Source: Bacteroidota bacterium (lineage in GTDB: Bacteria > Bacteroidota > Ignavibacteria > Kryptoniales > JAKASW01). Taken from it: 64,000 nt of DNA. This document shows positions 20,948 through 39,492 of this stretch, in pieces. The notes beneath the pieces were generated by a model. That model saw only the letters and a list, made by a program, of their open reading frames with translations. It was not told where the DNA came from and made no database searches. The translations under genes and the position numbers were made by a program. The stretch lies in NCBI GenBank assembly GCA_021812985.1, contig JAKAMG010000006.1:1-64000 (forward strand). The letters are read 5' to 3'. Numbering within the stretch: the stretch's first letter is position 1; every line of letters starts with the position of its first letter.

Positions 20948-23143
20948 ATGAAAAGAAACCTACTGACATTCGCGCGGGCTGCGTCCCGCATCATCCTGAT
21001 ACTCGTCGCATCTTCAATTTCAGAAACTGCGTTCGCGCAGTCTGGGGGTGGACCTGTCGCACCAAAGACTGTTTTTCAAACCGGGCAGCCATGGAACGAG
21101 GCTTATGATTTGCGATCTGACGCGGCCATCGTCTACGGTGTGTACAACAAGTTTCACGGAAGAGTAGACTCCTGGAGGGAACACGGATACGCGGTGCAGT
21201 TCATGACCGGCATAGCATGGGGAAACTACCAGGATTATTTTCTCGGCAAATTTGACGGGAAGAGGCATATGGGCGACGGCCAGGTCGACAGCGCGGGGAA
21301 CGTCATTTGGCACGGGAAAGATGTCCCTTATGTCGTCCCGTCGCAGCCATATCTAAAATATATTGAATCTATCATAAGGGAAGTCATAGACGAAGGTATG
21401 ACGACAATCTACCTTGAGGAGCCGGAGTTTTGGGCAAGGTCGGGGTACAGCGACGCGTTCAAGAGAGAATGGACCAAATACTATGGTACACCATGGGAGC
21501 CGCAGTACAAATCTGCGGATGCCACTTACCTTTCGTCGAAATTGAAATTTCATCTCTACTACGAGGCTCTCAGGGAGGTGCTCCATTATGCGAAGGCTTA
21601 CGGACGCGGCAAGGGAAAGGAGATTAAGTGCTTCGTCGCGACGCATTCACTTCTGAACTACTCTTCATGGGAAATTGTCAGCCCTGAAGCAAGCCTCGCT
21701 TCCATACCAGACATCGATGGATATATTGCTCAAGTTTGGTCTAACACCGCCCAGGCGCCCAACTATTACAACGGCGTGCTCAAATCACGGACGTTTGAAA
21801 CAGCGTTCCTTGAATACGGCGCGATGGAGTCTATGACGGCTCCGACGCACCGCATGATGTATTTCCTTTCCGATCCTGTAGGCGATGCAGTGTCAACCTG
21901 GTCCAGCTACAGGAAGAGCTACGAGCAAACCTTCACCGCGGAGCTCATGTACCCGAAGGTTAACAGGTTCGAGGTGATGCCGTGGCCGGAGCGGATATAT
22001 CTCGGTAAGTATAAGCTGTCTGACTCAAAGGAAACGGAGCGCATTCCTCCATCTTTTGCGACGCAGATACAGGTCATGGTTAATTCGCTTAATCAGATGC
22101 CGAAAGGTAGGAGCGGCGCAGGAGGGGCGGAAGGAGTCGCGGTTCTCCTCGGCAATTCGCTTATGTTCCAACGCTTCCCGACTCACGGCGGGTACAGCGA
22201 TCCGAATCTCTCCAACTTTTATGGGCTCGCCCTGCCGCTCCTCCTCAGAGGCATTCCATTGAAGCTCGTCAACATGGAGAACCTTGGTTACCCGGCGACA
22301 CTTCAAAAGGTTCGAGTCCTCCTGATGAGTTATGCCAGCATGAAGCCGCTCTCGCCCGAAGTCCACAGGTACCTGGCGGCTTGGGTCAAGAAGGGGGGTG
22401 TGCTCATCTACTTCGGACGGGACGATGACCCATTTCAGAAGGTTACCGAATGGTGGGACACAGGCCGGAACCACTACGCCGTCCCTTCGGAACATCTCTT
22501 CAATCTTATGGGTATAAAACTGGAGGCATCCAGAATCGGATACAAAGTGGGGAGAGGAAAAGTCTACGTCATAAGGGAAGACCCAAAGGAATTTGTCCTG
22601 AGGAGGGATGGAGATACTTCGTTTGTCGATCTGGTTAAACACGCGTATGAAACCGATGCCCGCGCTGGAAAAATGACGGTGAAGAATTACTTCCATCTTA
22701 GGAGAGGCGCATACGACATTGCCGCTGTCATGAAAGAGAGCGTCGACACTTCTTCGCTGACAATAAAGGGGCCCGTGATAGATCTGTTCGATCCGACTCT
22801 TCCTGTACTGACTGAGAAAGTCGTGCGTCCGGGTGAAGAGGCCCTCCTTCTGAATGTCGGGAGAATAACGAACCGCGACCTGCCGGGCGTCTTATGCGGG
22901 GCCTCGAGAGTGTACGACGAGGTTGTCAGGAAAAGTTCGTATGCTTTCCTAACAAAAGGTCCCTCAGGCACCCACGATGTGATGAGGGTGATGCTCCCGA
23001 ACCGTCCGACTTCAGTAAATGTTGTCGGAGGCGAAGGGGGGGTGCTGATCGACGAGTCACACCAGTGGGACAGCAAGTCAGGGACGCTCCTTCTCCAATT
23101 CGGGAACTCGCCTGCAGGCGTGCGTGTCAGGCTGACGTGGTGA
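20948..23143 (+). CDS. Secreted protein, putative glycoside hydrolase-like (TIM-barrel-like N-terminal part, GATase-like/beta-galactosidase-trimerization-like C-terminal part)
   Basis: Start refined to ATG 20948 (MKRNLLTFARAASRIILILVASSISETAFAQ signal). IREVIDEGMTTIYLEEPEFWAR and later VLLMSYASMKPLSPEVHRYLAAWVKKGGVLIYFGRDDDPFQ segments. Family assignment tentative. Confidence 0.6.
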   Translation: MKRNLLTFARAASRIILILVASSISETAFAQSGGGPVAPKTVFQTGQPWNEAYDLRSDAAIVYGVYNKFHGRVDSWREHGYAVQFMTGIAWGNYQDYFLGKFDGKRHMGDGQVDSAGNVIWHGKDVPYVVPSQPYLKYIESIIREVIDEGMTTIYLEEPEFWARSGYSDAFKREWTKYYGTPWEPQYKSADATYLSSKLKFHLYYEALREVLHYAKAYGRGKGKEIKCFVATHSLLNYSSWEIVSPEASLASIPDIDGYIAQVWSNTAQAPNYYNGVLKSRTFETAFLEYGAMESMTAPTHRMMYFLSDPVGDAVSTWSSYRKSYEQTFTAELMYPKVNRFEVMPWPERIYLGKYKLSDSKETERIPPSFATQIQVMVNSLNQMPKGRSGAGGAEGVAVLLGNSLMFQRFPTHGGYSDPNLSNFYGLALPLLLRGIPLKLVNMENLGYPATLQKVRVLLMSYASMKPLSPEVHRYLAAWVKKGGVLIYFGRDDDPFQKVTEWWDTGRNHYAVPSEHLFNLMGIKLEASRIGYKVGRGKVYVIREDPKEFVLRRDGDTSFVDLVKHAYETDARAGKMTVKNYFHLRRGAYDIAAVMKESVDTSSLTIKGPVIDLFDPTLPVLTEKVVRPGEEALLLNVGRITNRDLPGVLCGASRVYDEVVRKSSYAFLTKGPSGTHDVMRVMLPNRPTSVNVVGGEGGVLIDESHQWDSKSGTLLLQFGNSPAGVRVRLTW

Positions 23144-23318
23144 CGATCCTGGGATGGCGTAAATCTAAATCAGCGTTTGGCGTCAACGGCATTCCGGGAC
23201 TGGAAACCAAAAAGTTAGTGGTAAACCATCCGGACATTAGCGGACATAATAAGATATTTTAGGAATAGTTTGGAGTTTTAACCCCTGAGTGGTACTTTTA
23301 TTCCGTTCAATTTGAAAC

Positions 23319-23990
23319 ATGGAACTCAAGATCAAAGATATTGTCGATTTGTTGCAGGTAAACGAGAAGACGGTTTACCGTTGGATAAAAGAGAAGAAGA
23401 TTCCCTGTTATCGCATCAACCATCAGTATCGATTCAACCGGGCCGAGATAAATGAATGGATACTGAGCAACAAGATAGACCTTGCCTCTTCCGCGGTTAA
23501 CCTCGGACTGACCGACCACAATCTTGCCAACCTGTTCGCGGAGGGGGGGCTTGTCTCATCTGTATCTGGATCGACTCCTGCAGAAGTCATAACGAGCGCC
23601 GTCGAACAGATCAAGCTCCCGCCCGGCTTGAAGAAGGAAGAGGTAGTCCTCGCTCTCATGCGGCGCGAAGAGCTTATGCCCACTGCGATTGGGAGAGGCG
23701 TCGCGATTCCCCACCCGCGCAGTCCCATAGTCACAGACCCGAAGAACGCGAACATATCAATCTGCTATCTTGAGCAACCGGCAAATTTCCATGCGCTGGA
23801 CGGCAAGCTGGTACACACGATCTTCATCTTGTTCACTGCCACCCCGCGCATGCATCTTGAAGTTCTCTCAAAGATTTCTCATCTCTGCCAGGAGGACGTT
23901 TTCCTGGATAAGCTGAGTTCAAGAGCTCCGAAGGCTGAGGTATTGGAATTCATTCGCTCAAGGGAAATTGAGTGGAGCACGAAGGACTGA
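23319..23990 (+). CDS. Excisionase-type helix-turn-helix domain fused to a PTS EIIA (fructose/mannitol-type) domain
   Basis: MELKIKDIVDLLQVNEKTVYRWIKEKKIPCYRINHQYRFNRAEINEWILSNKI (HTH_17/excisionase-like) followed by LKKEEVVLALMRREELMPTAIGRGVAIPHPRSPIV...HTIFILFTATPRMHLEVLSKISHLCQ (EIIA type 2 with active-site His in AIPHPR). Confidence 0.9.
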   Translation: MELKIKDIVDLLQVNEKTVYRWIKEKKIPCYRINHQYRFNRAEINEWILSNKIDLASSAVNLGLTDHNLANLFAEGGLVSSVSGSTPAEVITSAVEQIKLPPGLKKEEVVLALMRREELMPTAIGRGVAIPHPRSPIVTDPKNANISICYLEQPANFHALDGKLVHTIFILFTATPRMHLEVLSKISHLCQEDVFLDKLSSRAPKAEVLEFIRSREIEWSTKD

Positions 23991-23996
23991 TTTGCC

Positions 23997-25979
23997 TTGA
24001 CTGAGTTTCTCGTCGGAGTCGCGGTGATTTTTCTCGGAGGTGTCGCGGCATGCGTCTCCCCGGAGAAGGGGAAAGGGTGGGTGTTTTCACTTTTTGCCGC
24101 TTCGGCCCAGTTTCTGATTCTCCCCGCCGTAATAAGTACCCTTCTTAGCGGCGGACTGGCACAGCTGCCTCTCAGTTTCGGCGAGCCGATAGGTTTAGCG
24201 TACCTCCGCCTCGACCCGCTGGCTGCCCTGTTCTCTCTCCTGATATCAACAGGTACGATTTTCGCTTCGGTATATTCGATCGGCTACATGAAGATGTACG
24301 CGGGGAGGGCTTCTTCTCTTTCCTCGCATTATTTGTTCCTCGGCATGATGTCCGCCGCGATGCTTCTCGTTGTGGTAGTGCAGAACGCCATTCTTTTCCT
24401 CATCGTATGGGAGGTCATGTCTGTCTCCTCTTTTCTTCTCGTCGCTTTTGACAATGGGGACGCTGAGGTGAGGAAGGCGGCCCTCTATTATTTCACGGCG
24501 ATGCAGGTTGGGGCGGCCTTTCTGATAGCTGCTTTCGGATGGGTATCGGCGGCCTCCGGTTCGCTTGACTTCAATTCATTTACCTCCGTGCTTGGAAGAT
24601 GGGACTTTGTATCGATCCTCCTATTCGTACTCTTCTTCTTAGGTTTTGGTACGAAAGCTGGGTTTGTGCCGCTTCACACGTGGCTCCCAAGAGCACATCC
24701 GGCCGCCCCGACGGGCGTATCTGCCCTGATGTCGGGTGTCATGATCAAGTTGGGCATATACGGAATCCTCAGGATTCTACTACTGTCAGGGGTCCCCAAC
24801 AGCCATGTCGCGTATGGGGTGCTCGTGATATCGGTTCTCACCGGGATATTCGGCATCACAAACGCGATAGCCCAGGACGACATCAAGCGGCTACTCGCTT
24901 ATTCGAGCATCGAGAACGTTGGCATAATTGGCATTGGTATTGGAATCGGAATGCTAGGGCTTGCGTACCATTCCCCTCTTGTGGCAATGCTTGGATTCCT
25001 CGGGGCGCTCCTCCACACGGTCAACCATTTTACGTTCAAGAGCGTTCTCTTCCACGCGAGCGGAGTGATCTACTCCCGGACACACACGAGAGACATGAAT
25101 AAACTCGGCGGGCTGGGGAAGTATCTGCCGGTGACCTCCGCCGGGTTCCTCATCGCCTCACTCGCGGCAATGGGGCTTCCGGTCTTCAATGGGTTCATTT
25201 CAGAGCTTGCGTTATATCTCGGCCTTGCCAAGGCGTTCATGATAAGCTCAGTCGTCACTTCAGTCGCCGCTTTATTCTCTTTGTCAGGGCTTGCGTTCAC
25301 AGGAGCGATGGCGCTCCTCGCCTTCTCGAAGGCCTATGGCATCACTTTCCTCGGTCTGCCTCGCGAGAGGCTCCATGCCAATCCGGCTGAGACTGAGTGG
25401 ACGCTCATCGCCCCTATGGTCACCCTTGCGGTGGTGATTGTCGCGATGGGACTCCTCCCTTGGCTGGCAGTGATATTGCTTAGAAATGTGATAATTCAGT
25501 TTGTCCCGGCCCTTTCTCCCGACGACTTTTTATTTGTAACCGAGACACTTCGGACTGTATCCACCGTATTTACCGGACTTCTGGTGTTGACGGGTGTATT
25601 CCTCGGATTGAGATCTCTTCTTCTGAAGCGGAGAAACGTCGCCACCTTCAAGACTTGGGACTGCGGCTATCAGGTGGGGAGTGCAAGACTCCAGTACACC
25701 GGCAGCTCTTTTGCCCAGCCATTCCTTCACCTCGTGGAGGAACTGGTGCCTAGGCGGATCCGCGTGAACAAGGAACCGTTCCTGTTCCCGAAGGACGCGT
25801 CTCTCGAGAGCCACACGCAGGACCTTTCGGAAAGGTTCATATACAGGCCGACTATAAGGGCGGTCGATCGGTTCCTGGGCCTCTTCTCGTGGATACAGAG
25901 CGGCCGAATGCAGCAATACATAATGTACGGCCTCGTGTTCATCGTCGCTCTTCTCATTTGGATACTCGGGGTGAAGTAG
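23997..25979 (+). CDS. Proton-translocating membrane subunit, HyfB/NuoL-like (Ehr complex)
   Basis: 660 aa, TTG start; antiporter-like core (HTWLPRAHPAAPTGVSALMSGVMIKLGIYGILRI, AYSSIENVGIIGIGIGIGMLGL, HTVNHFTFKSVLFHASGVIY); C-terminal TWDCGYQVGSARLQYTGSSFAQPF typical of HyfB-like proteins. Confidence 0.93.
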   Translation: MTEFLVGVAVIFLGGVAACVSPEKGKGWVFSLFAASAQFLILPAVISTLLSGGLAQLPLSFGEPIGLAYLRLDPLAALFSLLISTGTIFASVYSIGYMKMYAGRASSLSSHYLFLGMMSAAMLLVVVVQNAILFLIVWEVMSVSSFLLVAFDNGDAEVRKAALYYFTAMQVGAAFLIAAFGWVSAASGSLDFNSFTSVLGRWDFVSILLFVLFFLGFGTKAGFVPLHTWLPRAHPAAPTGVSALMSGVMIKLGIYGILRILLLSGVPNSHVAYGVLVISVLTGIFGITNAIAQDDIKRLLAYSSIENVGIIGIGIGIGMLGLAYHSPLVAMLGFLGALLHTVNHFTFKSVLFHASGVIYSRTHTRDMNKLGGLGKYLPVTSAGFLIASLAAMGLPVFNGFISELALYLGLAKAFMISSVVTSVAALFSLSGLAFTGAMALLAFSKAYGITFLGLPRERLHANPAETEWTLIAPMVTLAVVIVAMGLLPWLAVILLRNVIIQFVPALSPDDFLFVTETLRTVSTVFTGLLVLTGVFLGLRSLLLKRRNVATFKTWDCGYQVGSARLQYTGSSFAQPFLHLVEELVPRRIRVNKEPFLFPKDASLESHTQDLSERFIYRPTIRAVDRFLGLFSWIQSGRMQQYIMYGLVFIVALLIWILGVK

Positions 25980-26890
25980 TGGCGATAGCGCTGGCGGTAC
26001 TCCTTTTGTCCCCATTATTCTTCTCCGGATTGATCTCTAAAGTGAAGGCCGTCTGGGGAGGGAGGAGAGGAGCCCCGGTCCTTCAACCTTACTACGATTT
26101 CTTCAAGCTACTTCGCAAGGGGGAAGTTATAAGCGCAACCACAACTCCAATATTCCGGATCGCTCCATCTATCGGCATAGCCGCGACGATCCTCGCTCTC
26201 ATGATTGTGCCGATCCCGACTTTCGGATCGCTTATAAGCTTCAACGGCGACTTCGCGCTCTTTGCTTATTTGATGGGGCTGACGAAATTTTTCACAGTCG
26301 CTGCGGCGCTCGACACTGGAAGTAGTTTCGAGGGAATGGGAGCGAGCCGTGAAGTCACATATTCAACGATAGTGGAGACGGCATTCCTGATCGTCATCGG
26401 GTCGCTCGCACTTCTCACCCACCATGTCTCATTTGATTCCATATTCTCCTCAGTGGGCCTGATATCTGAATACACTCCGCTTGTCAGGATTCTTCTCGTC
26501 GCTTCGCTCTTCATCATGCTCCTTGCCGAGGGGAGCCGTGTTCCCGTCGACGATCCCAATACGCATCTTGAACTCACAATGATCCATGAAGTGATGGTGC
26601 TGGATTATTCAGGTCCTGACCTGGCCTTCATACAATATACAGCGGCGCTGAGGATGACGATCATTTCAACTTTGATCGCGAACCTGATTGTGCCGGCTTT
26701 AGCTCCCGCGATCCAGGCCTTGCTGTTGTTTGGCGTAACAATGCTCGTGACTTTCGTAGCCGTCGGGGGAGTGGAATCGCTCATTGCCCGTTCGCGAATG
26801 TCGCATGTACCCCAGTTCCTCTTTCTGATGACCGCGCTGTCGCTCACCGCCTTCGCAGTAGTCGTATTCTTCCTTTACGGGGGCAGATGA
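25979..26890 (+). CDS. Membrane subunit, HyfC/NuoH-like (Ehr complex)
   Basis: GTG 25979 overlapping the previous TAG; KAVWGGRRGAPVLQPYYDFFKLLRKGEVIS and EGSRVPVDDPNTHLELTMIHEVMVLDYSGPDLAFI are NuoH/HyfC hallmarks. Confidence 0.93.
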   Translation: MAIALAVLLLSPLFFSGLISKVKAVWGGRRGAPVLQPYYDFFKLLRKGEVISATTTPIFRIAPSIGIAATILALMIVPIPTFGSLISFNGDFALFAYLMGLTKFFTVAAALDTGSSFEGMGASREVTYSTIVETAFLIVIGSLALLTHHVSFDSIFSSVGLISEYTPLVRILLVASLFIMLLAEGSRVPVDDPNTHLELTMIHEVMVLDYSGPDLAFIQYTAALRMTIISTLIANLIVPALAPAIQALLLFGVTMLVTFVAVGGVESLIARSRMSHVPQFLFLMTALSLTAFAVVVFFLYGGR

Positions 26891-27525
26891 TGACTGAAAT
26901 ACTCATTATAATCCTTGGTACGACGATGCTTTACGTCTTTTCGGTAAGCAGGCTCGAATCATACGTAAAGGCGCTCTCTGCCCAGGGTTTCATTCTCTTC
27001 CTCCTCGTCCTTTTTGGCATTAGCCGAATGACGTGGCTGAACGTTGCTTTCCTGGTCTTCGAAACGCTAATCGTCAAGGCAATCGTGATTCCTTACTTCC
27101 TCCTGACCGTAATCAGGAAGAGCGAAACCTCACGCGAGATAGAGCCCTACCTCTCACAGTTCTATTCGCTTCTAATTGCGACGGCGATATTCGCCTTTGG
27201 TTTTATCGCGGCGTTCTGGGTGAGAACTACAGGAAGTCACATCAGGCCGCTCTATTTTGGAATATCCATCGCCATGATCATCCTCAGCCTCTTTCTCATC
27301 GTCAACAGAAAGCGAATTCTCACGCACATACTCGCTTACATGATGCTCGAGAATGGAATATTCCTCCTCTCTCTGTCTGTCGCTAACGAACTACCGATGC
27401 TTGTGAATATAGGAGTCCTACTGGATCTTTTCGTGGCGATTTATCTTTTCGCGATCTTTTTCAACAAGATTAACGAAATCTTCGACGGCAGCCACGTCGA
27501 CGCCTTGACGGAATTGAAAGACTAG
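26887..27525 (+). CDS. Membrane subunit, HyfE-like (Ehr complex)
   Basis: 212 aa, multi-TM; LTHILAYMMLENGIFLLSLSVANELPMLVNIGVLLDLFVAIYLFAIFFNKI resembles the HyfE/NuoK-like domain; 4-nt overlap with preceding gene. Confidence 0.88.
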   Translation: MMTEILIIILGTTMLYVFSVSRLESYVKALSAQGFILFLLVLFGISRMTWLNVAFLVFETLIVKAIVIPYFLLTVIRKSETSREIEPYLSQFYSLLIATAIFAFGFIAAFWVRTTGSHIRPLYFGISIAMIILSLFLIVNRKRILTHILAYMMLENGIFLLSLSVANELPMLVNIGVLLDLFVAIYLFAIFFNKINEIFDGSHVDALTELKD

Positions 27526-28989
27526 GTGATGACGGGGATTGTAATAATACTTCCGCTGATTTTGGCGTTTGCCAGCCTTGCTCTGAATAGCAGGGTGGTG
27601 AATCGATTAGCGCTCATGAGTGCGGCAGTGCTCTTTGTCGTGGTGCCGATTTGCAGATGGTACGGGCTTGACTGGGAGTTGGGGCTCGGAGGGTTTCTGT
27701 CTTACTTCAGGTTCGACGACATAGGACTTTTCTTCTTTTTTATTATGGGGTTGGTTTTTGCCGGCGTGGCCGTCTACAGTCTGTCATACTTCCGTATGCA
27801 TAATTTGAAAGCGACCGAGGAATCCGTGTTTGTCGCAGAGCTCCTCGCGTTTACTGTGGCGATGGCCGGCGTGATTCTCTCCACCAACCTCGCGCTCCTG
27901 TGGGTGTTTGTCGAAGCGACAACGTTGACGAGCGCGCTCCTCATTTATTTTGAGAAGCGAAAATCTTCCCTCGAGGCCACGTGGAAATATATCTACATTT
28001 GTTCTGTTGGTATCGCCCTCGCCTTTGTCGGGATAATATTACTGTCCATTGGAAGCGAAAGCGTCGGATCTCTTTTCTTCAGCGATCTGTATGAGCATGC
28101 CTCCCAGGTGAACCCGGTTTGGCTGAAGCTTGCGTTTGCGTTTCTCTTCGTCGGACTTGGGACCAAGATCGGTCTGGCGCCGATTCATGCATGGCTCCCG
28201 GATGCACACTCCGAGGCGCCGTCGCCGGTCTCCGCGCTCCTATCCGGTACACTGCTCAATTCCGCATTCCTCGGACTCCTGAGAGTACAGGAGCTGGTGA
28301 TTCGGGCAGGCGAGGAGAAGTTTTCAAATTTCATACTCATCTTGACGGGGTTTCTCTCGCTCCTGGTGAGCGCGGTCTACATGCTAAGGGTGAAAAACTA
28401 CAAACGAATGTTGGCGTACTCGTCCGTCGAGAACATGGGCATCATGATTCTTGCCGTTGGGCTTGGCCCCGTTGGTCTTTTTGCCGCAATGCTCCAGGCC
28501 CTCGCGCATTCTCTCTCCAAAACTTCACTCTTTCTGACCTCCGGTAATATCCTCCATGAGTACGGGACAAAGAAAATTGAGAGTGTTACCGGGTTGCTCA
28601 AGCGCGACTCTGTGACCGGATGGATATGGATCGCTTCTTTCCTCTCCATTGTCGGGATTCCGCCGTTTCCGATTTTCATCAGCAAGTTCTTCATCATCAG
28701 GGCATTCTGGTTTGATGGCCAGGGATGGTTGGCGGCACTCTTCTTCCTCTTCATCATTGTCGTCACTTTTGGAATGGGAAGCGCCGTATTCAAGATGGTG
28801 TTTGGAGAGAGTAGTCTGGAATCGGCGGACGCCTCAAAACCCGGACTCTCTGCTTACATCCCGCAAATTGCCCTGCTGGTTATGCTCTTGATTATCGGAA
28901 TAAACATGCCTCAACAATTGCACGACATGCTTGAAAAGGCGGCATTGTTCCTGTCGGCCGGCTCAGGCGGTGGTGTTCTGGGAAGATAA
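27526..28989 (+). CDS. Proton-translocating membrane subunit, HyfF/NuoM-like (Ehr complex)
   Basis: 487 aa; FLFVGLGTKIGLAPIHAWLPDAHSEAPSPVSALLSGTLLNSAFLGLLRV, AYSSVENMGIMILAVGLG, ALAHSLSKTSLFLTSGNIL. Confidence 0.93.
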   Translation: MMTGIVIILPLILAFASLALNSRVVNRLALMSAAVLFVVVPICRWYGLDWELGLGGFLSYFRFDDIGLFFFFIMGLVFAGVAVYSLSYFRMHNLKATEESVFVAELLAFTVAMAGVILSTNLALLWVFVEATTLTSALLIYFEKRKSSLEATWKYIYICSVGIALAFVGIILLSIGSESVGSLFFSDLYEHASQVNPVWLKLAFAFLFVGLGTKIGLAPIHAWLPDAHSEAPSPVSALLSGTLLNSAFLGLLRVQELVIRAGEEKFSNFILILTGFLSLLVSAVYMLRVKNYKRMLAYSSVENMGIMILAVGLGPVGLFAAMLQALAHSLSKTSLFLTSGNILHEYGTKKIESVTGLLKRDSVTGWIWIASFLSIVGIPPFPIFISKFFIIRAFWFDGQGWLAALFFLFIIVVTFGMGSAVFKMVFGESSLESADASKPGLSAYIPQIALLVMLLIIGINMPQQLHDMLEKAALFLSAGSGGGVLGR

Positions 28990-28991
28990 CG

Positions 28992-30491
28992 TTGAGCCCT
29001 ATGATGAAATGGCTTGAGACTGCGAACCTGCGAACTGTTCGGTTAGCCGAGATACCTAATTGGGATCTGGAGGAGCTCGCGCATCAGACGGTGGCGAGAG
29101 TTAATGGCGGCGGAAGGCTTCTGTTATTCTTTGGCGAAGAAACCCGGGAAGGAGTCTTTGTCTACTCGCTCGTAGCGGACGACAATCAGTCCAAGATATT
29201 TGTCGCCTCGTCACGCGTCACGAGGGGGATGTCGTACAAGTCTATGACTCCGGATATTCCATCCGCGCATTTGTTCGAGAGGGAATTGTTTGAGGAATTC
29301 GGCGTGGAGCCGAAGGGACATCCCTGGTTGAAGCCGGTGCGTTACGGAATTCCCGGAGTCAACGAGCGCGAGGATCAGTACGAGTTCTTTAGCGTGAAAG
29401 GCGATGAAGCCCACGAGGTAGGCGTCGGCCCCATTCATGCCGGGGTCATTGAGCCGGGCCACTTCAGGTTTTCATGCCATGGCGAGAAAATATACCAGTT
29501 GGAGATTAAACTCGGCTTCCAGCACCGGGGCGTCCAAGAGCTTTTCATAAGAGAACCTTTCAGCACGATATATCTGGAAAAACTTGCCGAGTCTGTCGCC
29601 GGTGACACAGTCATAGGCCACGCGGGTGGTTTCGCCCGCGCCTTTGAATCTCTATCGGGTACCCAGGTTCCTGAAAGGGCAAAGGTGATCAGGACGATCG
29701 CCCTGGAACTCGAGCGAGTCGCGATTCACCTTGGAGACTTATCCGCTATCTCCGGAGACGTCGCATATCTCACGGGGAACTCAGTCTTCGGCGCATTAAG
29801 GACGAAGGTCATTAACACGACGATGGCGATATGCGGAAACCGGTTCGGCCGGGGATTAATGAAGCTGGGCGGCGTTGGTTTCGATGTTACTCCGGTCTTG
29901 CGCGACAAAATCACCGCGCTGGTCGACGATTTGGAAGAGGACGTTTCGCTCGCTGCCGAAGTACTCTTCTCGTCGTCGTCCGTCCTGGAAAGGTTGGAGG
30001 AGACGGGTGTTGTAACGAAGGAGGCTGCACGCGATATAGGCATGGTTGGACCGGCCGCCCGCGCGAGCGGCGTCGCCGTGGATGTAAGGTCAGATCATCC
30101 GTTTGACGGATTCGTCCTTATGCCGGTCCATAAGCTGACGCTTCCCGGCGGAGATGTCTTTGCAAGAGCCTACATCAGATATATCGAGATTCAGCAGTCG
30201 TTCAGGCTTATCAGGGAACAACTTGCCAGCCTGAGCCCCGGCGGGATAAGGAGTGAATTGAAGGGCCCGCACCCCGGTATTTTTGTGGTTTCTCTTACCG
30301 AGGGCTGGCGAGGCGAAATCGCTCACGCCGTTATTACAGACGAGGCTGGCAAAATCCGAAAAGTGAAAGTTAAAGATCCGTCGTTCAACAACTGGTTCGG
30401 GCTGTCGCTCGCTGTACGTGAAGAGGGAATATCTGATTTCCCGCTGTGCAACAAGAGCTTCAACCTGTCTTACTGCGGATTCGACCTGTAG
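28992..30491 (+). CDS. Hydrogenase-large-subunit-like protein (HyfG/NuoCD-like, fused 30-kDa and 49-kDa domains) lacking NiFe ligand cysteines
   Basis: 499 aa; IYQLEIKLGFQHRGVQELF, VDVRSDHPFDGF, C-terminal KDPSFNNWFGLSLAVREEGISDFPLCNKSFNLSYCGFDL; equivalents of both CxxC motifs are replaced. Confidence 0.93.
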   Translation: MSPMMKWLETANLRTVRLAEIPNWDLEELAHQTVARVNGGGRLLLFFGEETREGVFVYSLVADDNQSKIFVASSRVTRGMSYKSMTPDIPSAHLFERELFEEFGVEPKGHPWLKPVRYGIPGVNEREDQYEFFSVKGDEAHEVGVGPIHAGVIEPGHFRFSCHGEKIYQLEIKLGFQHRGVQELFIREPFSTIYLEKLAESVAGDTVIGHAGGFARAFESLSGTQVPERAKVIRTIALELERVAIHLGDLSAISGDVAYLTGNSVFGALRTKVINTTMAICGNRFGRGLMKLGGVGFDVTPVLRDKITALVDDLEEDVSLAAEVLFSSSSVLERLEETGVVTKEAARDIGMVGPAARASGVAVDVRSDHPFDGFVLMPVHKLTLPGGDVFARAYIRYIEIQQSFRLIREQLASLSPGGIRSELKGPHPGIFVVSLTEGWRGEIAHAVITDEAGKIRKVKVKDPSFNNWFGLSLAVREEGISDFPLCNKSFNLSYCGFDL

Positions 30492-30502
30492 AGAGGAATG
30501 CG

Positions 30503-31261
30503 ATGCTGGAGCTTTTGAGACTTCGTAAAAGACATGGAAGCCAGGCGATCCCGGACATCGTCAAGGCGGAACTCATGGAAACCCACAGAGGTTTTCCTGA
30601 AATAAATGAATCGAGGTTCTCTGGAAATCTAGACGAGCTGACCGCAATTTGTCCCACAGGCGCTATCGGCACGAGACCTCTTTCGATAGACATGGGGAAA
30701 TGCATTTTCTGCGGCGAGTGTGAGATACAGTCGGCGGGCGCCATCAGGTTCACTAACAGACATAAGACGGCGTCGACCAGAAGGGACGATCTTGTCGTTC
30801 CATCGGGATTGGCTTACGAAGAGTTCGGCGCGAAGGCGATTGAAGCTGCGGGAGGAATACGGAAAATACTTGGCCGTTCATTGAAGCTCAGGCAGGTTTC
30901 CGCGGGGGGGTGTAACGGGTGTGAGATGGAGCTCAATGCCTGCTCCAACGTGAACTTCGATATGGGGAGGTTCGGCATCGACTTCGTGGCCTCTCCCCGA
31001 CATGCCGATGGAATCGTGATCACCGGCCCAATCACGGGCAATATGGCGCCTGCCCTCTCTGACGCCTACAAAAGCGTGAGCGATCCGAAAATCGTTGTGG
31101 CTGTAGGCGCATGCGCCATCAGCGGGGGAGTGTTCGCGGAATCCAAACACTTGAACCGTACCTTCGTTGGCGAAGTGCAGGTCGACCTGTTTGTTCCCGG
31201 ATGTCCGCCGCATCCACTTACTTTTATAAATGCAATTCTTGATTTTCTGAAACGTCGCTGA
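30503..31261 (+). CDS. Ferredoxin domain fused to NuoB/HyfI-like small subunit (N2-type cluster)
   Basis: Start refined to ATG 30503 (MLELLRLRKRHGSQAIPDI). GGCNGCEMELNA...VAVGACAISGGVFAES...FVPGCPPHPLTFINAI small-subunit motifs; upstream ferredoxin-like ICPTGAI...KCIFCGECEIQSAGAI. Confidence 0.94.
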   Translation: MLELLRLRKRHGSQAIPDIVKAELMETHRGFPEINESRFSGNLDELTAICPTGAIGTRPLSIDMGKCIFCGECEIQSAGAIRFTNRHKTASTRRDDLVVPSGLAYEEFGAKAIEAAGGIRKILGRSLKLRQVSAGGCNGCEMELNACSNVNFDMGRFGIDFVASPRHADGIVITGPITGNMAPALSDAYKSVSDPKIVVAVGACAISGGVFAESKHLNRTFVGEVQVDLFVPGCPPHPLTFINAILDFLKRR

Positions 31262-31645
31262 AAAGTCTTCCCGGGAGATTAGTGGGTACTTCCTTCGTGT
31301 GACCCCCTCTTATCTTTTCCTCATTGTCTTGCTCAAGCCGTGAACCGGGTTGCGGTAGCGTTGACTTCCATCCCACGATGATTAAGTAACGCCCGGAAAT
31401 GGCCACGTCTCAAATTCATGTGATGGTGTTCGTGGCCAATTCATTCCCGCCGTCTTCTCGTTTGCCCGGTGGTAGACCTAGATGCAGAAAATGTTCTTCG
31501 GTTCAGTTTGCCAAAGCTTGCTGAGATTACTAACTTACCAGGCGCACATCACTCGTAGATTGCCACCCAGGCGTACGGGAGAGTCTGATGACGCAGTTCT
31601 TTTAATCCACGTTTCAAGAGACAGGACTAAGGGAGGTACCCAGGA

Positions 31646-32341
31646 ATGAGAACGATACTTCGTTACGCTTTTCTATCGCTGATTCTCCTTCAATATTCCG
31701 CCTACGGCCAAACCGTCACCGATTGGGCAAACCTGAAAAGATACGCTGAGGCCGATAGCAATCTCCCTCAGTTGGCTCCGGGAGAAAAGCGGGTTGTCTT
31801 CATGGGTAACTCCATCACTGAATTCTGGGCCAGGCTGGACAGCACCTTCTTCATTGACAACGGTTACATCGACAGAGGAATCAGCGGGCAGGTATCATCT
31901 CAGATGCTGCTCCGCTTCAGACAGGATGTTATCGACCTCAAACCGACGGTCGTCGTGATTCTCGCCGGTACAAATGACATAGCGGAAAATGCCGGTCCGA
32001 TATCACTGGAAGATGTCATGGGGAACATTATCTCCATGGCACAACTGGCTGAGACGAATAATATTAAAGTGATTCTTTGCTCCGTACTGCCGGCGTACGA
32101 TTTTCCATGGCACAAGGGTTTGCAGCCAGCGGAGAAGATCGTGAAGCTGAACTCCATGATTAAATCGTACTGTGATAAAAGCAATATCACCTACGCGGAT
32201 TACTACTCGAAAATGGTCGATGAGATGAAGGGGTTACCCGAAAAATATTCGCAAGACGGTGTCCATCCAAACTATGAAGGTTACAAGGTTATGGACTCGG
32301 TCATTAAGGGAGAAATCAATTCGTTACTGAGATCAAAATAG
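31646..32341 (+). CDS. SGNH/GDSL hydrolase family protein, secreted
   Basis: Signal peptide; VVFMGNSITEFW (block I), VVVILAGTNDIAENAG (block III), DGVHPNYEGY (block V). Confidence 0.92.
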   Translation: MRTILRYAFLSLILLQYSAYGQTVTDWANLKRYAEADSNLPQLAPGEKRVVFMGNSITEFWARLDSTFFIDNGYIDRGISGQVSSQMLLRFRQDVIDLKPTVVVILAGTNDIAENAGPISLEDVMGNIISMAQLAETNNIKVILCSVLPAYDFPWHKGLQPAEKIVKLNSMIKSYCDKSNITYADYYSKMVDEMKGLPEKYSQDGVHPNYEGYKVMDSVIKGEINSLLRSK

Positions 32342-33168: not shown

Positions 33169-34479
33169 ATGGAAAGGCGAAGCATGTTTTCAAAGAATCT
33201 TAGGTTGTCAATTTTGAATTGCGTAATAGGACTGGGGCTTGTTCTGCTATCGACGGTGAGCGCGTTCGGAAGGTCTCAGCTTGACAGCCTCATCTCGGTG
33301 GCGGTGAGGCACAATCCTGAAATCAGGATGGCCCAATATGAATCGATGGCAGCTCAGGCAAAGCTTGAGCCTGCGGGACAACTCCCTGATCCCGAGCTAA
33401 GGGTGGGAGCCATGAATGTTCCATCCGATTTCAACTTCACTTCCGAGACCATGACGATGGCGCCGGAATTCACGCTGATGGAAATGTTCCCGTGGTTTGG
33501 GAAGTTATCTGCCGCCGCCGATGCCGAGAAATACGGATACGAGTCTTCGTCGGACAGACTGGCGAGCGTGGCACTTGACGTTGTGACCAATCTGAAGAAA
33601 ATCTATGGCGAGCTTTATAGCGTCGAGAAATCTGTGCAGTATCTTGAATACAAGAAGCGGCTCCTCCAAGGCGTGGTCAGGGTCGCTGAGCAGCTATTCG
33701 CCGTCGGCCAGGTTCCTCAACAGGATGTCTTCCGTGCTACCGCTGAGCTGACTATGGTACAATCCGCTATCGTACTGAAACGGGGAGAACTTTCCGAATT
33801 GGAAGCAAAGCTTGGTGCAATCCTCGGCCGGAACGAGTCCTACAGATTACAGGTCGATACACTAATGCTCCCTGATCTCGCACCCCTGTCAACGCTTGAA
33901 ATCAGACTACGTGAAGGAAGCCCTGATCTGAGTGAGGTAAGGAACGTTCAGCGGGCAGCTGAGGCAAAGGAGGTATTGGCGAGAAAAGCGGCGGTACCGG
34001 ACATCACTGCCGGGGTGTCGTACGGATTTCGCAGCGCGCTTATCCCGGGCGGCATGAAAGCCCCGAATCTCATAAGCGTCGAGTTCGGAGTCAATATTCC
34101 AATCTTCTTCGGGGCCCGACAACAGAAGATGATTGATGAGGCGGATTTCATGCGGCGTGCCGCCGACCAGCAATATGGCGTGGTCACTCTCGCGTTATAC
34201 AGCCGGCTCCGCTCCTCGTATGCAAATGCGGCCGCCCAAAAAGAGCTTATTCCTCTTTATGCAAATGAATTGATCCCGCAGTATGAGGCGACTTACAACT
34301 CTTCGCTGTCTGCCTATTCCGTTGGTAAGACGACATTCGCGATGCTGATTGACAACCTTACCACTTTGATAAATGCGAAAATTGAGTTTGTGAAAATTGA
34401 ATCCGCGTATTTCTCCGCATCAGCCGACATTTCTAGGCTTGTCGGAGAAGGTTCAGAATCTTACAAAGGTGTGAAATGA
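33169..34479 (+). CDS. TolC/CusC-like outer membrane efflux protein
   Basis: 436 aa; signal peptide, SLISVAVRHNPEIRMAQYESMAAQAKLEPAGQLPDPELRVGAMNVP typical of heavy-metal RND OMFs; overlaps next gene. Confidence 0.92.
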   Translation: MERRSMFSKNLRLSILNCVIGLGLVLLSTVSAFGRSQLDSLISVAVRHNPEIRMAQYESMAAQAKLEPAGQLPDPELRVGAMNVPSDFNFTSETMTMAPEFTLMEMFPWFGKLSAAADAEKYGYESSSDRLASVALDVVTNLKKIYGELYSVEKSVQYLEYKKRLLQGVVRVAEQLFAVGQVPQQDVFRATAELTMVQSAIVLKRGELSELEAKLGAILGRNESYRLQVDTLMLPDLAPLSTLEIRLREGSPDLSEVRNVQRAAEAKEVLARKAAVPDITAGVSYGFRSALIPGGMKAPNLISVEFGVNIPIFFGARQQKMIDEADFMRRAADQQYGVVTLALYSRLRSSYANAAAQKELIPLYANELIPQYEATYNSSLSAYSVGKTTFAMLIDNLTTLINAKIEFVKIESAYFSASADISRLVGEGSESYKGVK

Positions 34480-36158
34480 GAAAAACATATTTGATAATCG
34501 TCCCATTGATCGCGACAGCGCTTATGCTGGCTGGCTGTGGCAAATCTCAAAGAGGGAGCGGTACAGCTAGCGGAGATTCGACCGTAGTCGGCGCCAGCTC
34601 CGGCGCACGGAAAGTCTTGTTCTGGTACGATCCCATGAATCCGACAGTCCACTTCGACCACCCCGGGAAATCTCCGTTCATGGATATGGAGCTTCAGCCG
34701 ATGTATGCCGACCGGAACGTTTCCAATCCAAACATGATTTCTGTGGATCCTGCCATGGTACAAAACATCGGTGTTGTAACGGCGCCGGTCGAACGCCGCC
34801 GGCTTACCAGGACTATCAACACGTACGGCGTAGTAATGCCGGACGAGAAGAGCATAAGCGACATAAATACGCGCGTCAGCGGCTGGATTGACAGACTATA
34901 CTTTGACTATACCGGCATGACTGTTCGAAAGGGAGAGCCGATGGCCGTCATATACAGCCCTGAGCTGATTGCCGCCGAACAGGAATTCCTGCAATCCGTG
35001 AGCTTTGCGGGAGTCAGCGGGAACGGCGTAACACAGTCAAATCCTCTAATAGCCAGCGCGCGTCAACGTCTCGCATTCTTCGGGATGAGCGACGGGGAAA
35101 TCAATGAGCTTCAAAAGACAGGTAAGGTAAACGACCGGGTCACGATTTATTCTCCAAGTGACGGTGTGATTTTGGAAAAGGATGTATTCGAGGGACAGAA
35201 GATTTCCGAAGGCCAAAGTCTTTTCAGGGTCGCGAACCTCTACCAAGTGTGGATTCTCGCCGACGTATTCAAGATTGACATGCCGTTTCTGAAACTCGGC
35301 TCACCGGCGACCGTGAGCTACAGCAGTTCTGAATCATATGATGGGGAGGTCGATTTCGTCTACCCTGAAGTCGATGCCGCGGCAAGAAGCGTGAAAGTCA
35401 GGATCCCGCTCTACAATCCTGACATGGATATGAAAGTCGGACAGTATGTGAATGTCACGATTCGTTCGCAGGTTAGCTATGACGCGGTCGCGGTCCCTTC
35501 ACAGGCGGTAATCAACACGGGGCTCAGGCAGGTTGTCGCTGTGGCTCTCGGAGCAGGAAAATTTGAAATTCGTCAGGTAAAACTGGGCGCGTATGCAGAT
35601 GGTTATTACGAGGTGCTCGATGGCCTCGACGAGGGAGAAATGGTGGTGACGTCAGGACAATTTCTTATCGATTCCGACGCGAACCTGCGTGAGGCTGGCG
35701 CCGCCATGGCCGGCATGTCCATGCCGCCCCCTTCGCCCGGAACTCCCGATGGGCAAAACGGAAGCACTGACGACATGCCTGGAATGAATGTACCCACTCA
35801 TGGAAACGGTTCAGCTGAACGCACGGAGGACATGCCCGGCATGGATATGCATGGCAAGGGGATGGACCATCTAACGCATAACGGAGACCACCGAACGGGG
35901 AACGGATCAACGCAAAGCATGGATATGCCGGGGATGAATATGAGATCCAGGAAGAAGACGGTGAAGAGAAGCTCCATGGAAGGCATCGGGATGCCAGGAT
36001 TGGACATGTCGGGCCACGCCGCGAAGAAGATGAACGCGGAGCGGAAGACGAAATCGGTAAAGCCTAAGAATAATGATTCCATGGACGGAATGGACATTAA
36101 CATGCCCGGAATGAAGATGGGCAACATGTCAAACGATAGTACGAGACAGGAGCACTGA
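34476..36158 (+). CDS. CusB-like efflux periplasmic adaptor with heavy-metal-binding domain and Met/His-rich C-terminal tail
   Basis: VLFWYDPMNPTVHFDHPGKSPFMDMELQPMY metal-binding segment; RVSGWIDRLYFDYTGMTVRKGEPMAVIYSPELIAAEQEFL; repeated DMPGM motifs at C-terminus. Confidence 0.95.
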   Translation: MRKTYLIIVPLIATALMLAGCGKSQRGSGTASGDSTVVGASSGARKVLFWYDPMNPTVHFDHPGKSPFMDMELQPMYADRNVSNPNMISVDPAMVQNIGVVTAPVERRRLTRTINTYGVVMPDEKSISDINTRVSGWIDRLYFDYTGMTVRKGEPMAVIYSPELIAAEQEFLQSVSFAGVSGNGVTQSNPLIASARQRLAFFGMSDGEINELQKTGKVNDRVTIYSPSDGVILEKDVFEGQKISEGQSLFRVANLYQVWILADVFKIDMPFLKLGSPATVSYSSSESYDGEVDFVYPEVDAAARSVKVRIPLYNPDMDMKVGQYVNVTIRSQVSYDAVAVPSQAVINTGLRQVVAVALGAGKFEIRQVKLGAYADGYYEVLDGLDEGEMVVTSGQFLIDSDANLREAGAAMAGMSMPPPSPGTPDGQNGSTDDMPGMNVPTHGNGSAERTEDMPGMDMHGKGMDHLTHNGDHRTGNGSTQSMDMPGMNMRSRKKTVKRSSMEGIGMPGLDMSGHAAKKMNAERKTKSVKPKNNDSMDGMDINMPGMKMGNMSNDSTRQEH

Positions 36159-36159
36159 C

Positions 36160-39100
36160 ATGCTTGCGAAAATAATTGAATGGTCGATAAAGAATCGCTT
36201 CATAGTCATGCTGCTCCTGATCTTCCTACTGGCGGCGGGCTATTACTCTCTGTCGACAAGCCCCGTCGACGCGATCCCGGATTTGAGCGATGTCCAGGTG
36301 ATTGTGTACACGGAGTATCCCGGCCAGTCGCCGACGGTGGTACAGGACCAGGTCACGTATCCGCTCACCTCATCTCTCATTTCGCTTCCAAATGCAAAAG
36401 TCGTACGCGGTTACTCCTACTTCGGATTCTCGCTGGTCTACATAATCTTCAAAGATGGCACAGATCTCTACTGGGCCCGAAGCCGTGTTCTGGAGTACCT
36501 CAATTATGCGGCTAAGCGATTACCGCAGGGGGTGATGCCCGCTCTTGGTCCTGACGCCACGCCTGTCGGCTGGGTCTACGAGTATGCTCTCAAGTCCGAC
36601 AAGAGAAGCCTTGGGGACTTGCGCTCGATACAGGATTATTATTTAAAGTATGGGCTATCGACAGTACCGGGTGTCGCAGAGGTCGCGAGCGTCGGCGGAT
36701 ACGTGAAGGAGTGGAGGGCCACGCTCGACCCGCGCAAACTTTTGGCATACCACATTTCTCCCATGCAGGTGATGAACTCCATCAAGGAAAGCAACAACGA
36801 CGTAGGCGGGGAGGTCATCGACCATGCCGGGTATGAGCTGATGATTAGAGGTCTTGGTTACATCAAGACACCGGACGACATGAAGAATATTCCTCTCGGT
36901 GTATCCCGCGGCGGTAGATTCTACCCGCTCTCTGGCGCTATGGGTACGGCACAGAACGGGAGCGCTGAATCCGGTTCTATGAACAGTGGGTCTTCTCAGC
37001 AGGGGATGGGACGGAGCGCGGGGAGTGCAACTTCAGACACGCGGAATCTTGTCTCTGCCTACCAGTCTCCTGCATCCGATTTTTCCACCGGAACTCCGGT
37101 TCTCCTTGGAGACGTTGCAGATGTCGAGGTAGTCGCGGCCGCGCGGCGCGGAGTGGCGGATCTGAACGGCGAAGGAGACGTTGTCGGAGGTATAATCGAG
37201 ATGCGATACGGGGAGAACGCGCTCAAAGTCATCGAGGGGGTTAAGGCAAAACTCGCCGAGCTGAAACAGGGGCTACCGCCTGACGTCCATATAGTTCCCG
37301 TCTACGACAGGGCTGACCTGATCCAAAGAGCTATCAACACACTTCGGGACAAGCTCATAGAGGAATCAATCATAGTGGCTTTGGTTTGCCTCCTCTTCCT
37401 GTTCCACTTCAGAAGCGGGTTCGTCGCGATATTCACTCTCCCCACCGCGATACTCATGGCATTCATCGTGATGAGGTGGCAAGGACTTAACGCGAATATT
37501 ATGTCACTCGGAGGGATTGCCGTTGCGATTGGAGCGATGGTGGACTCCGCCATAATCATGATCGAGAACGCCCACAAACATATCGAGGAGGATGGCGGGA
37601 AGACGGACAGGTGGACACTCATCACTGAATCGTCGAAGGAGGTCGGCCCGTCTCTGTTCTACTCACTTCTCGTGATAACCGTATCGTTCGTGCCAGTGTT
37701 TGCTTTGACCGGACAATCCGGTCGCCTGTTCAAGCCGCTCGCGTTTACCAAGACTTATTCGATGGCGGCCGCCGCGCTACTCGGCATAACTGTCGTACCC
37801 ATTCTGATGGGATACTTCATAAGGGGAAAAGTGCCGCCGGAAGAAAGGAATCCAATCAACCGGATATTGATGAAATTATATGCTCCGGTACTTGATTTCG
37901 TATTGAAATTCAAATGGTGGGTTCTCGGTGTTGCTTTGCTGATAATGGGAGTCACGGTCTATCCCTACATGAGGCTTGGTTCAGAGTTCATGCCGCCACT
38001 TTGGGAGGGAACCCTCCTCTACATGCCTTCCACGTTTCCGGGAATCTCCATTACGCAGGCACGCCAGACGCTCGAGATGACGGACAAGATCATAAAGAAA
38101 TTTCCGGAAGTCACGACCGTGTTTGGAAAAGCGGGTAGAGCGAATACACCTCTGGATCCGGCCGGTCTTGACATGTTCGAGACAACAGTGAATCTCAAGC
38201 CTGAATCTGAATGGCCAAAGGGAATGACGCCGGAAAAACTGAAAGCGGCTCTGAATGATGCCCTTCAGGTTCCGGGCCTTTCAAATGTCTGGACCATGCC
38301 CATCAAGAATCGCGTAGACATGACCAGCACCGGGATCAAAAGCCAGATCGGCATAAAAGTCATGGGGCCTGATCTCGATTCGCTCCAGGCTATAGGGGAG
38401 AGGATAGAGGCTCTTCTGAAGAAACTTCCTGAAACCTCGAGCGCGTTCGCGGAGCGTGTCGGATTCGGAAATTATGTCGACTTCAAGATAGACCGGGTCG
38501 AAGCGGCGAGATACGATCTGAGTGTGGAAGATATTGAAGACGTTATTAAAAGCGCAATGGGCGGCATGCCAGTTGGGCAGATCGTCTCAGGCATTGAGCG
38601 TTACCCGATCACCGTCCGCTACGCGCTCGAACAAAGGGACAATCCAGAAGCCCTGAAACGCGTTCTTGTCCCCACGCCTACCGGAGCCCAAATTCCGATA
38701 GGGGATGTGGCGCAAATGATAATTCATCACGGCCCGATGTTCATCAGGACGGAAGGCGCCGTTCCGACCATCTACGTCTTCGTGGATGCAAACACTTCAG
38801 ACATAGGTGGATACGTCTCCAAAGCAAAGCAATACCTTGCGCAGAATCTCAAGGTTCCGACGGGCTACTTCATAACCTGGAGCGGACAATTCGAGTTCAT
38901 GCAGGAAGCCGCGAGGACTTTGTGGCTCATAATTCCGGCCACGCTGCTCCTTGTCCTCCTCATCATCCACCTCAACACGAAGTCCCTGACGAAAACGCTC
39001 ATCGTCATGCTTGCCGTCCCGTTCTCACTCGTGGGGGCGATATGGTTCCTTTACATACTCGGTTACAACCTCAGCGTAGCGGTCGCGGTCGGCATGATTG

Positions 39101-39492
39101 CGCTTGCAGGCCTCGATGCTGAAACTGGTGTGGTGATGCTCTTATATCTGGACATCGCATACGAAAAGATGAAGAATGCCGGACATATGCTGACATCTGC
39201 ACATCTTAAGGAAGCCATACACGAGGGTGCTGTGAGAAGAGTTCGCCCCAAGATGATGACCGCTTCTGCAATCTTCGCGGGCCTGCTCCCGATTATGTGG
39301 GCCACCGGGACAGGCGCTGACGTGATGAAGAGGATCGCGGCTCCAATGGTTGGAGGAGTAGTCACAAGCGTGCTTCTTGAACTCATGGTCTATCCGGTGA
39401 TTTATTATCTCTGGAGGAGACGGGAACTGAGACAAAAAGCGGGTATTGTCGAAAGCTTTTCGCAAGGGGGGAAGGAGCCTGAAGGTAGGTAA
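36160..39492 (+). CDS. CusA/CzcA-family heavy-metal RND efflux pump
   Basis: 1110 aa; DAIPDLSDVQVIVYTEYPGQSPTVVQDQVTYPL, GGIAVAIGAMVDSAIIMIENAHKHIE, LNGEGDVVGGIIEMRYGENALKVI, VKVMGPDLDSLQ. Confidence 0.97.
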   Translation: MLAKIIEWSIKNRFIVMLLLIFLLAAGYYSLSTSPVDAIPDLSDVQVIVYTEYPGQSPTVVQDQVTYPLTSSLISLPNAKVVRGYSYFGFSLVYIIFKDGTDLYWARSRVLEYLNYAAKRLPQGVMPALGPDATPVGWVYEYALKSDKRSLGDLRSIQDYYLKYGLSTVPGVAEVASVGGYVKEWRATLDPRKLLAYHISPMQVMNSIKESNNDVGGEVIDHAGYELMIRGLGYIKTPDDMKNIPLGVSRGGRFYPLSGAMGTAQNGSAESGSMNSGSSQQGMGRSAGSATSDTRNLVSAYQSPASDFSTGTPVLLGDVADVEVVAAARRGVADLNGEGDVVGGIIEMRYGENALKVIEGVKAKLAELKQGLPPDVHIVPVYDRADLIQRAINTLRDKLIEESIIVALVCLLFLFHFRSGFVAIFTLPTAILMAFIVMRWQGLNANIMSLGGIAVAIGAMVDSAIIMIENAHKHIEEDGGKTDRWTLITESSKEVGPSLFYSLLVITVSFVPVFALTGQSGRLFKPLAFTKTYSMAAAALLGITVVPILMGYFIRGKVPPEERNPINRILMKLYAPVLDFVLKFKWWVLGVALLIMGVTVYPYMRLGSEFMPPLWEGTLLYMPSTFPGISITQARQTLEMTDKIIKKFPEVTTVFGKAGRANTPLDPAGLDMFETTVNLKPESEWPKGMTPEKLKAALNDALQVPGLSNVWTMPIKNRVDMTSTGIKSQIGIKVMGPDLDSLQAIGERIEALLKKLPETSSAFAERVGFGNYVDFKIDRVEAARYDLSVEDIEDVIKSAMGGMPVGQIVSGIERYPITVRYALEQRDNPEALKRVLVPTPTGAQIPIGDVAQMIIHHGPMFIRTEGAVPTIYVFVDANTSDIGGYVSKAKQYLAQNLKVPTGYFITWSGQFEFMQEAARTLWLIIPATLLLVLLIIHLNTKSLTKTLIVMLAVPFSLVGAIWFLYILGYNLSVAVAVGMIALAGLDAETGVVMLLYLDIAYEKMKNAGHMLTSAHLKEAIHEGAVRRVRPKMMTASAIFAGLLPIMWATGTGADVMKRIAAPMVGGVVTSVLLELMVYPVIYYLWRRRELRQKAGIVESFSQGGKEPEGR

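Follow-up and report, generated by a model that had tools for sequence, protein, structure and literature searches.

A fused HTH-EIIA protein as a probable BldC-like, phosphotransferase-responsive regulator of an Ehr-type membrane complex

Ehr complexes occur in many bacterial phyla, with known examples in Geobacter sulfurreducens (GSU0739-0745), Riflemargulisbacteria, and comammox Nitrospira. They are characterized by a Hyf/Ech-like subunit set, antiporter-type subunits, and the absence of the [NiFe] CxxC motifs. Their function was stated to be unknown in 2019 and 2023, and is termed so in PMC10284858, while a formate link was proposed in PMC7894505 and PMC6349859. A seven-gene locus with these characteristics was analyzed here in a stretch of 64,000 nucleotides (the window) from the Bacteroidota assembly GCA_021812985.1 (contig JAKAMG010000006.1, positions 1 to 64,000, class Ignavibacteria). 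Its first gene encodes a helix-turn-helix (HTH) domain fused to an EIIA domain of the phosphotransferase system (PTS). This fusion protein is probably a BldC-like, PTS-responsive autoregulator of an Ehr-type redox-driven ion pump.

Three other described systems are comparable in part. BldC, a MerR-like winged HTH protein of Streptomyces, shares with the fusion protein a recognition helix K-T-x-x-R-W-x-K and GGACA-core direct repeats on the same helical face, but it is a stand-alone protein of 68 aa with no other domain. EIIA-Ntr (PtsN) shares the EIIA_2 fold, the active-site His, and the presence of EI and HPr without a PF02378 EIIC, but is not fused to a DNA-binding domain. Formate hydrogenlyase and hydrogenase-4 (Hyc and Hyf) are related in the large subunit and have the same membrane modules, whereas the complex of the window lacks the [NiFe] ligands and is accompanied by a regulator of another type; the regulator of Hyf is HyfR. 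The features of the locus, at 23319-31261 with its upstream region, are as follows:

23232..23249, + strand: putative operator, direct repeats GGACATTAGC and GGACATAA, 10 bp apart, at -87 and -77 from the fusion ATG
23270..23300, + strand: putative promoter TTGGAG-N17-TACTTTTA, with a third half-site GGAG (-47) overlapping the -35 box
23319..23990, + strand: fusion of a BldC-like winged HTH (about 1-55) and a PTS EIIA domain (about 69-220), 223 aa, from Pfam, AlphaFold, Foldseek, and the BldC alignment
23997..25979, + strand: HyfB-like antiporter-type membrane subunit, TTG start; PF00361, 6.6e-54
25979..26890, + strand: HyfC-like (NuoH) membrane subunit; PF00146, 1.4e-32; longest open reading frame (ORF) from 25889
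26887..27525, + strand: HyfE-like membrane subunit; NCBIfam hydrogenase 4 membrane subunit, 3.3e-20, under the family cut-off
27526..28989, + strand: HyfF-like antiporter-type membrane subunit; PF00361, 4.2e-52
28992..30491, + strand: HyfG-like large subunit, NuoC/NuoD fusion; PF00329 and PF00346
30503..31261, + strand: HyfI-like small subunit, ferredoxin-like N-terminal part and NuoB part; PF01058, 5.7e-29; longest ORF from 30446

The HyfB-like gene starts 6 bp past the stop of the fusion gene, and the junctions downstream of HyfB and HyfC are overlaps or gaps of 11 bp at most. The initial annotation placed the end of the fusion at 23990 and the start of HyfB at 23997, followed by the HyfC-, HyfE-, HyfF-, HyfG-, and HyfI-like series. 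The ORFs, Pfam, and NCBIfam agree with this arrangement, with two starts refined: that of HyfC is more likely the GTG at 25979, sharing one base with the HyfB stop, and that of HyfI is placed at the ATG at 30503. A sigma-70 scan of 23000-31700 returned no promoter-like site on the forward strand, the scan being uninformative for this phylum.

The linkage between the fusion and the operon was examined at three depths. Within the genus, the fusion is present in 9 of 13 genomes and a close HyfG in the same nine, while the remaining four have neither (Fisher test, 0.0014). The gene order is identical in all eight congeners compared, one contig stopping within HyfE. In a sample of 396 genomes of the phylum, a full-length fusion was found in 13 including the genome of the window, all 13 with the operon (Fisher test, 3e-21); beyond the genus, 12 of 12 full-length fusions are located at the operon in the same gene order, with identity down to 28%. 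A divergent complex without the fusion is present in four further genomes of the sample. Finally, 84,980 species were scanned across phyla and the best 80 loci were taken. A full-length fusion is encoded in 63 of them, one on a contig that stops at the fusion gene, and among the 62 informative loci the operon adjoins the fusion in 56. These 56 loci are from about nine phyla, labeled as Ignavibacteria, Calditrichota, Brevinematales, Omnitrophota, Victivallaceae, FCPU426, Spirochaetes, Aminicenantes, Acidobacteria, Desulfuromonadia, and Planctomycetes. In one locus (L115; L numbers are locus labels of this analysis), the fusion and the operon are divergent. Pairwise distances of the fusion and HyfG are correlated (r = 0.94, 53 loci), a correlation that common descent alone could yield. 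The flanks of the loci share no conserved gene family, and the unit is therefore regarded as these seven genes. The cross-phylum synteny rules out a chance neighborhood. The fusion is thus kept beside the complex in relatives at every depth, the opposite of what the initial annotation had named as a refutation, and the link between regulator and operon is strongly supported by these sequence comparisons.

Some loci carry duplications: in L106 the whole operon occurs twice in tandem, with one fusion each, and two consecutive fusions precede the operon in the Planctomycete loci L118, L120, L126, and L129. Stand-alone EIIA genes were considered as members of the system and rejected; they account for 17 loci of the scan, mostly from Treponema, and none is beside Ehr. 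These Treponema/Spirochaete genes (L119, L121, L123, L125, L128, and others) are close in sequence to the EIIA domain of the fusion, and are preceded by a conserved gene of about 670 aa (family f6) and often followed by a transketolase-like gene.

Both domains of the fusion protein score past the Pfam cut-offs (PF12728 HTH_17, 3.6e-15; PF00359 PTS_EIIA_2, 2.4e-23), and the AlphaFold model shows two domains predicted with confidence and a loose linker between them, with a mean predicted local distance difference test (pLDDT) score of 89.5. The second domain matches PtsN/EIIA-Ntr structures with Foldseek and scores under the cut-off for the PtsN equivalog (46.5 against 138.7 bits). The active-site His132 is present in 77 of 77 fusion homologs. 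In the HTH domain, K17, T18, R21, and W22 align with the BldC contact residues K26, T27, R30, and W31, and DNA contacts of K26, R30, and W31 were reported (PMC5859096). The recognition helix reads T[V/I]YRW in 49 fusions and differs in 27.

Upstream of the fusion gene, GGACA-type repeats are located at -87, -77, and -47, with fixed half-site spacings of 10 and 30 bp. The operator pattern has a single match in the window, where 0.05 are expected, and GGACAWTNNNGGACAW has one exact match genome-wide and none in the reversed control. The sequence CGGACATTAGCGGACATAA resembles the site in the BldC crystal, CAATTCGGACAATTCGGACA (PMC5859096). Scored on both strands as two GGACA(A/T) half-sites 10 bp apart, the motif was found upstream of 37 of the 49 T[V/I]YRW fusions and none of the 27 others (p = 1.5e-11, a value inflated by common ancestry), and in 7 of 991 controls; spacings of 7-9 and 11-13 bp gave 0-2 of the 49. 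A position matrix for the + strand gave 34/49 against 0/27, with 1 of 978 controls; it missed loci that carry the motif on the opposite strand. R21 and Y20 are present in all 37 motif loci, and in 16 and 15, respectively, of the 39 other loci. The motif extends to about five phyla, including loci outside the training set: L108-L110 from Acidobacteria, L111, L113, L115, and L117 from Desulfuromonadia, L126 and L129 from Planctomycetes, and L095 from Victivallaceae. The motif of L108-L111, L113, and L117 reads on the other strand, some 50 bp ahead of the start. A promoter-like element TTGGA-N17-TAnnTT is found at a similar distance in 12 loci besides the window, and the -47 half-site overlaps its TTGGAC.

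The initial annotation also noted that no HPr or EI gene lies in the window. This is correct for the window and not for the genome, in which HPr and EI are adjacent on contig C21 and HPr kinase is on C57, along with a separate stand-alone EIIA gene. Relatives also carry HPr, EI, and HPr kinase, except for one 84%-complete genome in the case of HPr and EI. No PF02378 EIIC was found in 16 genomes, in a search that covered this family and no other EIIC family. Because EI, HPr, and HPr kinase are present and PF02378 was not found, the PTS is likely to be regulatory rather than sugar-importing. The proposed coupling of phosphorylation or sugar status to an ion-pumping complex stands as regards the link between regulator and operon, while its sugar part is weakened; since the PTS proteins found were limited to EI, HPr, HPr kinase, and EIIA, the input is more likely to be PEP/pyruvate (PEP, phosphoenolpyruvate) or energy status.

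Among solved structures, HyfG is closest to the large subunit of formate hydrogenlyase (FHL-1 HycE, 7z0s chain E, 5e-63). In this alignment, A203, T206, S493, and G496 stand in place of the four [NiFe] cysteines, and the CxxC motifs L1 and L2 of group 4 [NiFe] hydrogenases are absent. The four columns hold predominantly A, T/S, S, and G in 64 HyfG homologs, just two of which have a Cys, in both cases at 203. In HyfI, Cys 69/86/89/92 and 156/159/223/253 (numbered from 30446) are kept in 57-58 of 58 homologs; the NuoB-like part has all four proximal-cluster cysteines, and the ferredoxin-like N-terminal part, with four cysteines, is expected to hold one [4Fe-4S] cluster. In the antiporter-type subunits, E139, K220, and E403 of HyfB do not vary among 86 homologs and K251 is kept in 84 of the 86, and E130, K214, and K332 of HyfF are invariant (68/68). 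HyfG H178, kept in 61 of 64 homologs, matches the quinone-site His of complex I (Thermus thermophilus Nqo4 His38), and position 214, F in 37 and Y in 16, matches its Tyr87. The antiporter-type, NuoH-, NuoD-, and NuoB-like subunits of Ehr are all present, and the [NiFe] cysteines are lost while the small-subunit Fe-S ligands are retained. The earlier assignment to Ehr is therefore strongly supported at the residue level. These substitutions exclude an ordinary [NiFe] hydrogenase, while residues for electron transfer and the ion path are retained. The Desulfuromonas locus L111 has two HyfB and seven genes, as reported for Geobacter Ehr, a comparison of gene content only, whereas the window has a single HyfB and no formate dehydrogenase partner nearby. 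No family of formate dehydrogenase or another redox partner recurs in the locus flanks, and the recurrent neighboring transporter is SulP.

In the proposed mechanism, the winged HTH domain would bind head-to-tail on GGACA(A/T)T direct repeats 10 bp apart, and the resulting oligomer, extending from upstream into its own promoter, would set the transcription of the seven-gene operon. Phosphate for His132 would come from HPr and EI, whose genes lie outside the window, and PEP/pyruvate or energy status, not sugar import, would decide DNA binding or the form of the oligomer. Motif binding, phosphorylation of His132, and the direction in which electrons and ions would move we infer from sequence. 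Activation is slightly favored over repression because the repeats are upstream of the -35 box. The putative operator adds support to the earlier suggestion that the fusion protein controls expression, in which phosphorylation and DNA binding remain predictions.

Several observations weigh against this proposal. The match to BldC is weak (0.33 in alignment; 6.5e-4, under the cut-off, in profile search), and its repeats are spaced by 9 bp, not 10 bp. Twelve T[V/I]YRW loci do not reach the strict cut-off for the motif. The GGACA half-site was derived from the same data on which it was scored, a circularity partly offset by the spacing controls and the distant phyla. A few fusions sit elsewhere, beside SulP, ClC, or unrelated genes. 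Moreover, 27 fusion loci have neither the motif nor the T[V/I]YRW helix, and motif binding is therefore not the sole conserved role of the fusion. In L053-L061 and Spirochaete-like loci, the R-W helix residues and the motif are lost, and the fusion with His132 is still beside the complex.

This last observation also favors the strongest alternative reading, itself rather unlikely, in which EIIA acts chiefly after translation: the fusion protein would dock on the membrane complex and gate it, the HTH domain being autoregulatory or vestigial. Free EIIA-Ntr acts on K+ transport systems. A SulP-STAS-EIIA gene (PF00916, PF01740, PF00359) lies between HyfG- and HyfI-like genes in the Ehr-like cluster L063 (6939-9140), in a genome that yielded no HTH-EIIA gene, and in other loci ClC or SulP genes come after HTH-EIIA. 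ClC-CBS genes directly follow HTH-EIIA in place of Ehr in Desulfobacterota (L135:4626-6389, L140:10681-12414, and L142:9731-11419), and L117 has HTH-EIIA ahead of a SulP gene. Conversely, a SulP gene immediately precedes the fusion/Ehr operon, in the same orientation, in L053, L054, L057, L059, and L060, and L058 has only an apparent decayed SulP remnant. In Spirochaete- or L053-type loci, no other clear direct repeats were found at 9, 10, 11, 20, 21, 30, or 31 bp, and no GGACA tandem was evident upstream of SulP in five of them, inspected by eye and unscored. However, post-translational gating leaves the operator and its co-variation with T[V/I]YRW unexplained, and EIIA-type domains occur in transcription regulators as well. 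Because of the degenerate-HTH loci and the SulP and ClC neighbors, EIIA may also act directly on membrane proteins.

It is improbable that the GGACA repeats serve a different regulator or belong to an extended promoter, with the fusion merely traveling with the operon. The third half-site does lie within the -35-like TTGGAC, but the motif tracks the recognition residues of the fusion, recurs on the other strand in Acidobacteria and several Desulfuromonadia, and is similar to that of BldC. Very improbable is a decayed, non-functional hydrogenase whose regulator is of little consequence. The loss of all four [NiFe] cysteines fits such decay, and a 2026 Geobacter paper terms Ehr already nonfunctional (PMC13194489). 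However, the Fe-S cysteines and antiporter Glu/Lys residues are near-universal across phyla, which argues that Ehr is not a dead enzyme, and G. sulfurreducens produces Ehr subunits, at the highest level when grown on formate (PMC7894505). BldC-like, PTS-responsive autoregulation thus remains the probable reading. A wider and much more tentative idea is that HTH-EIIA proteins are a widespread class connecting membrane proteins that move charge (Ehr, SulP, and ClC) with PTS phosphorylation, both through transcription from BldC-type repeats and through EIIA contact; in that case, Ehr would pump ions, driven by redox reactions, in concert with anion transport, such as of bicarbonate or sulfate, under PEP/energy control in bacteria without a sugar PTS.

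Downstream in the window (33169-39492), an outer-membrane-factor-like gene, a membrane-fusion-like gene with Met-rich DMPGMxM repeats, and a 1110-aa ORF form a metal-efflux-like set, judged by eye and probably for copper/silver export.

The component families are known, but the open-licence papers searched appear not to describe how they are combined, how widely the combination occurs, or the putative operator, and no HTH-EIIA regulator or operator linked to Ehr was found in them. If the proposal is correct, the BldC mode of DNA binding extends to a protein with a fused effector domain, and a PTS that seemingly does not import sugar gains a transcriptional output. A dedicated conserved regulator, with a predicted operator and the EI-HPr relay as a named input, would offer a handle on when Ehr is made, in response to which signal, and for what purpose.

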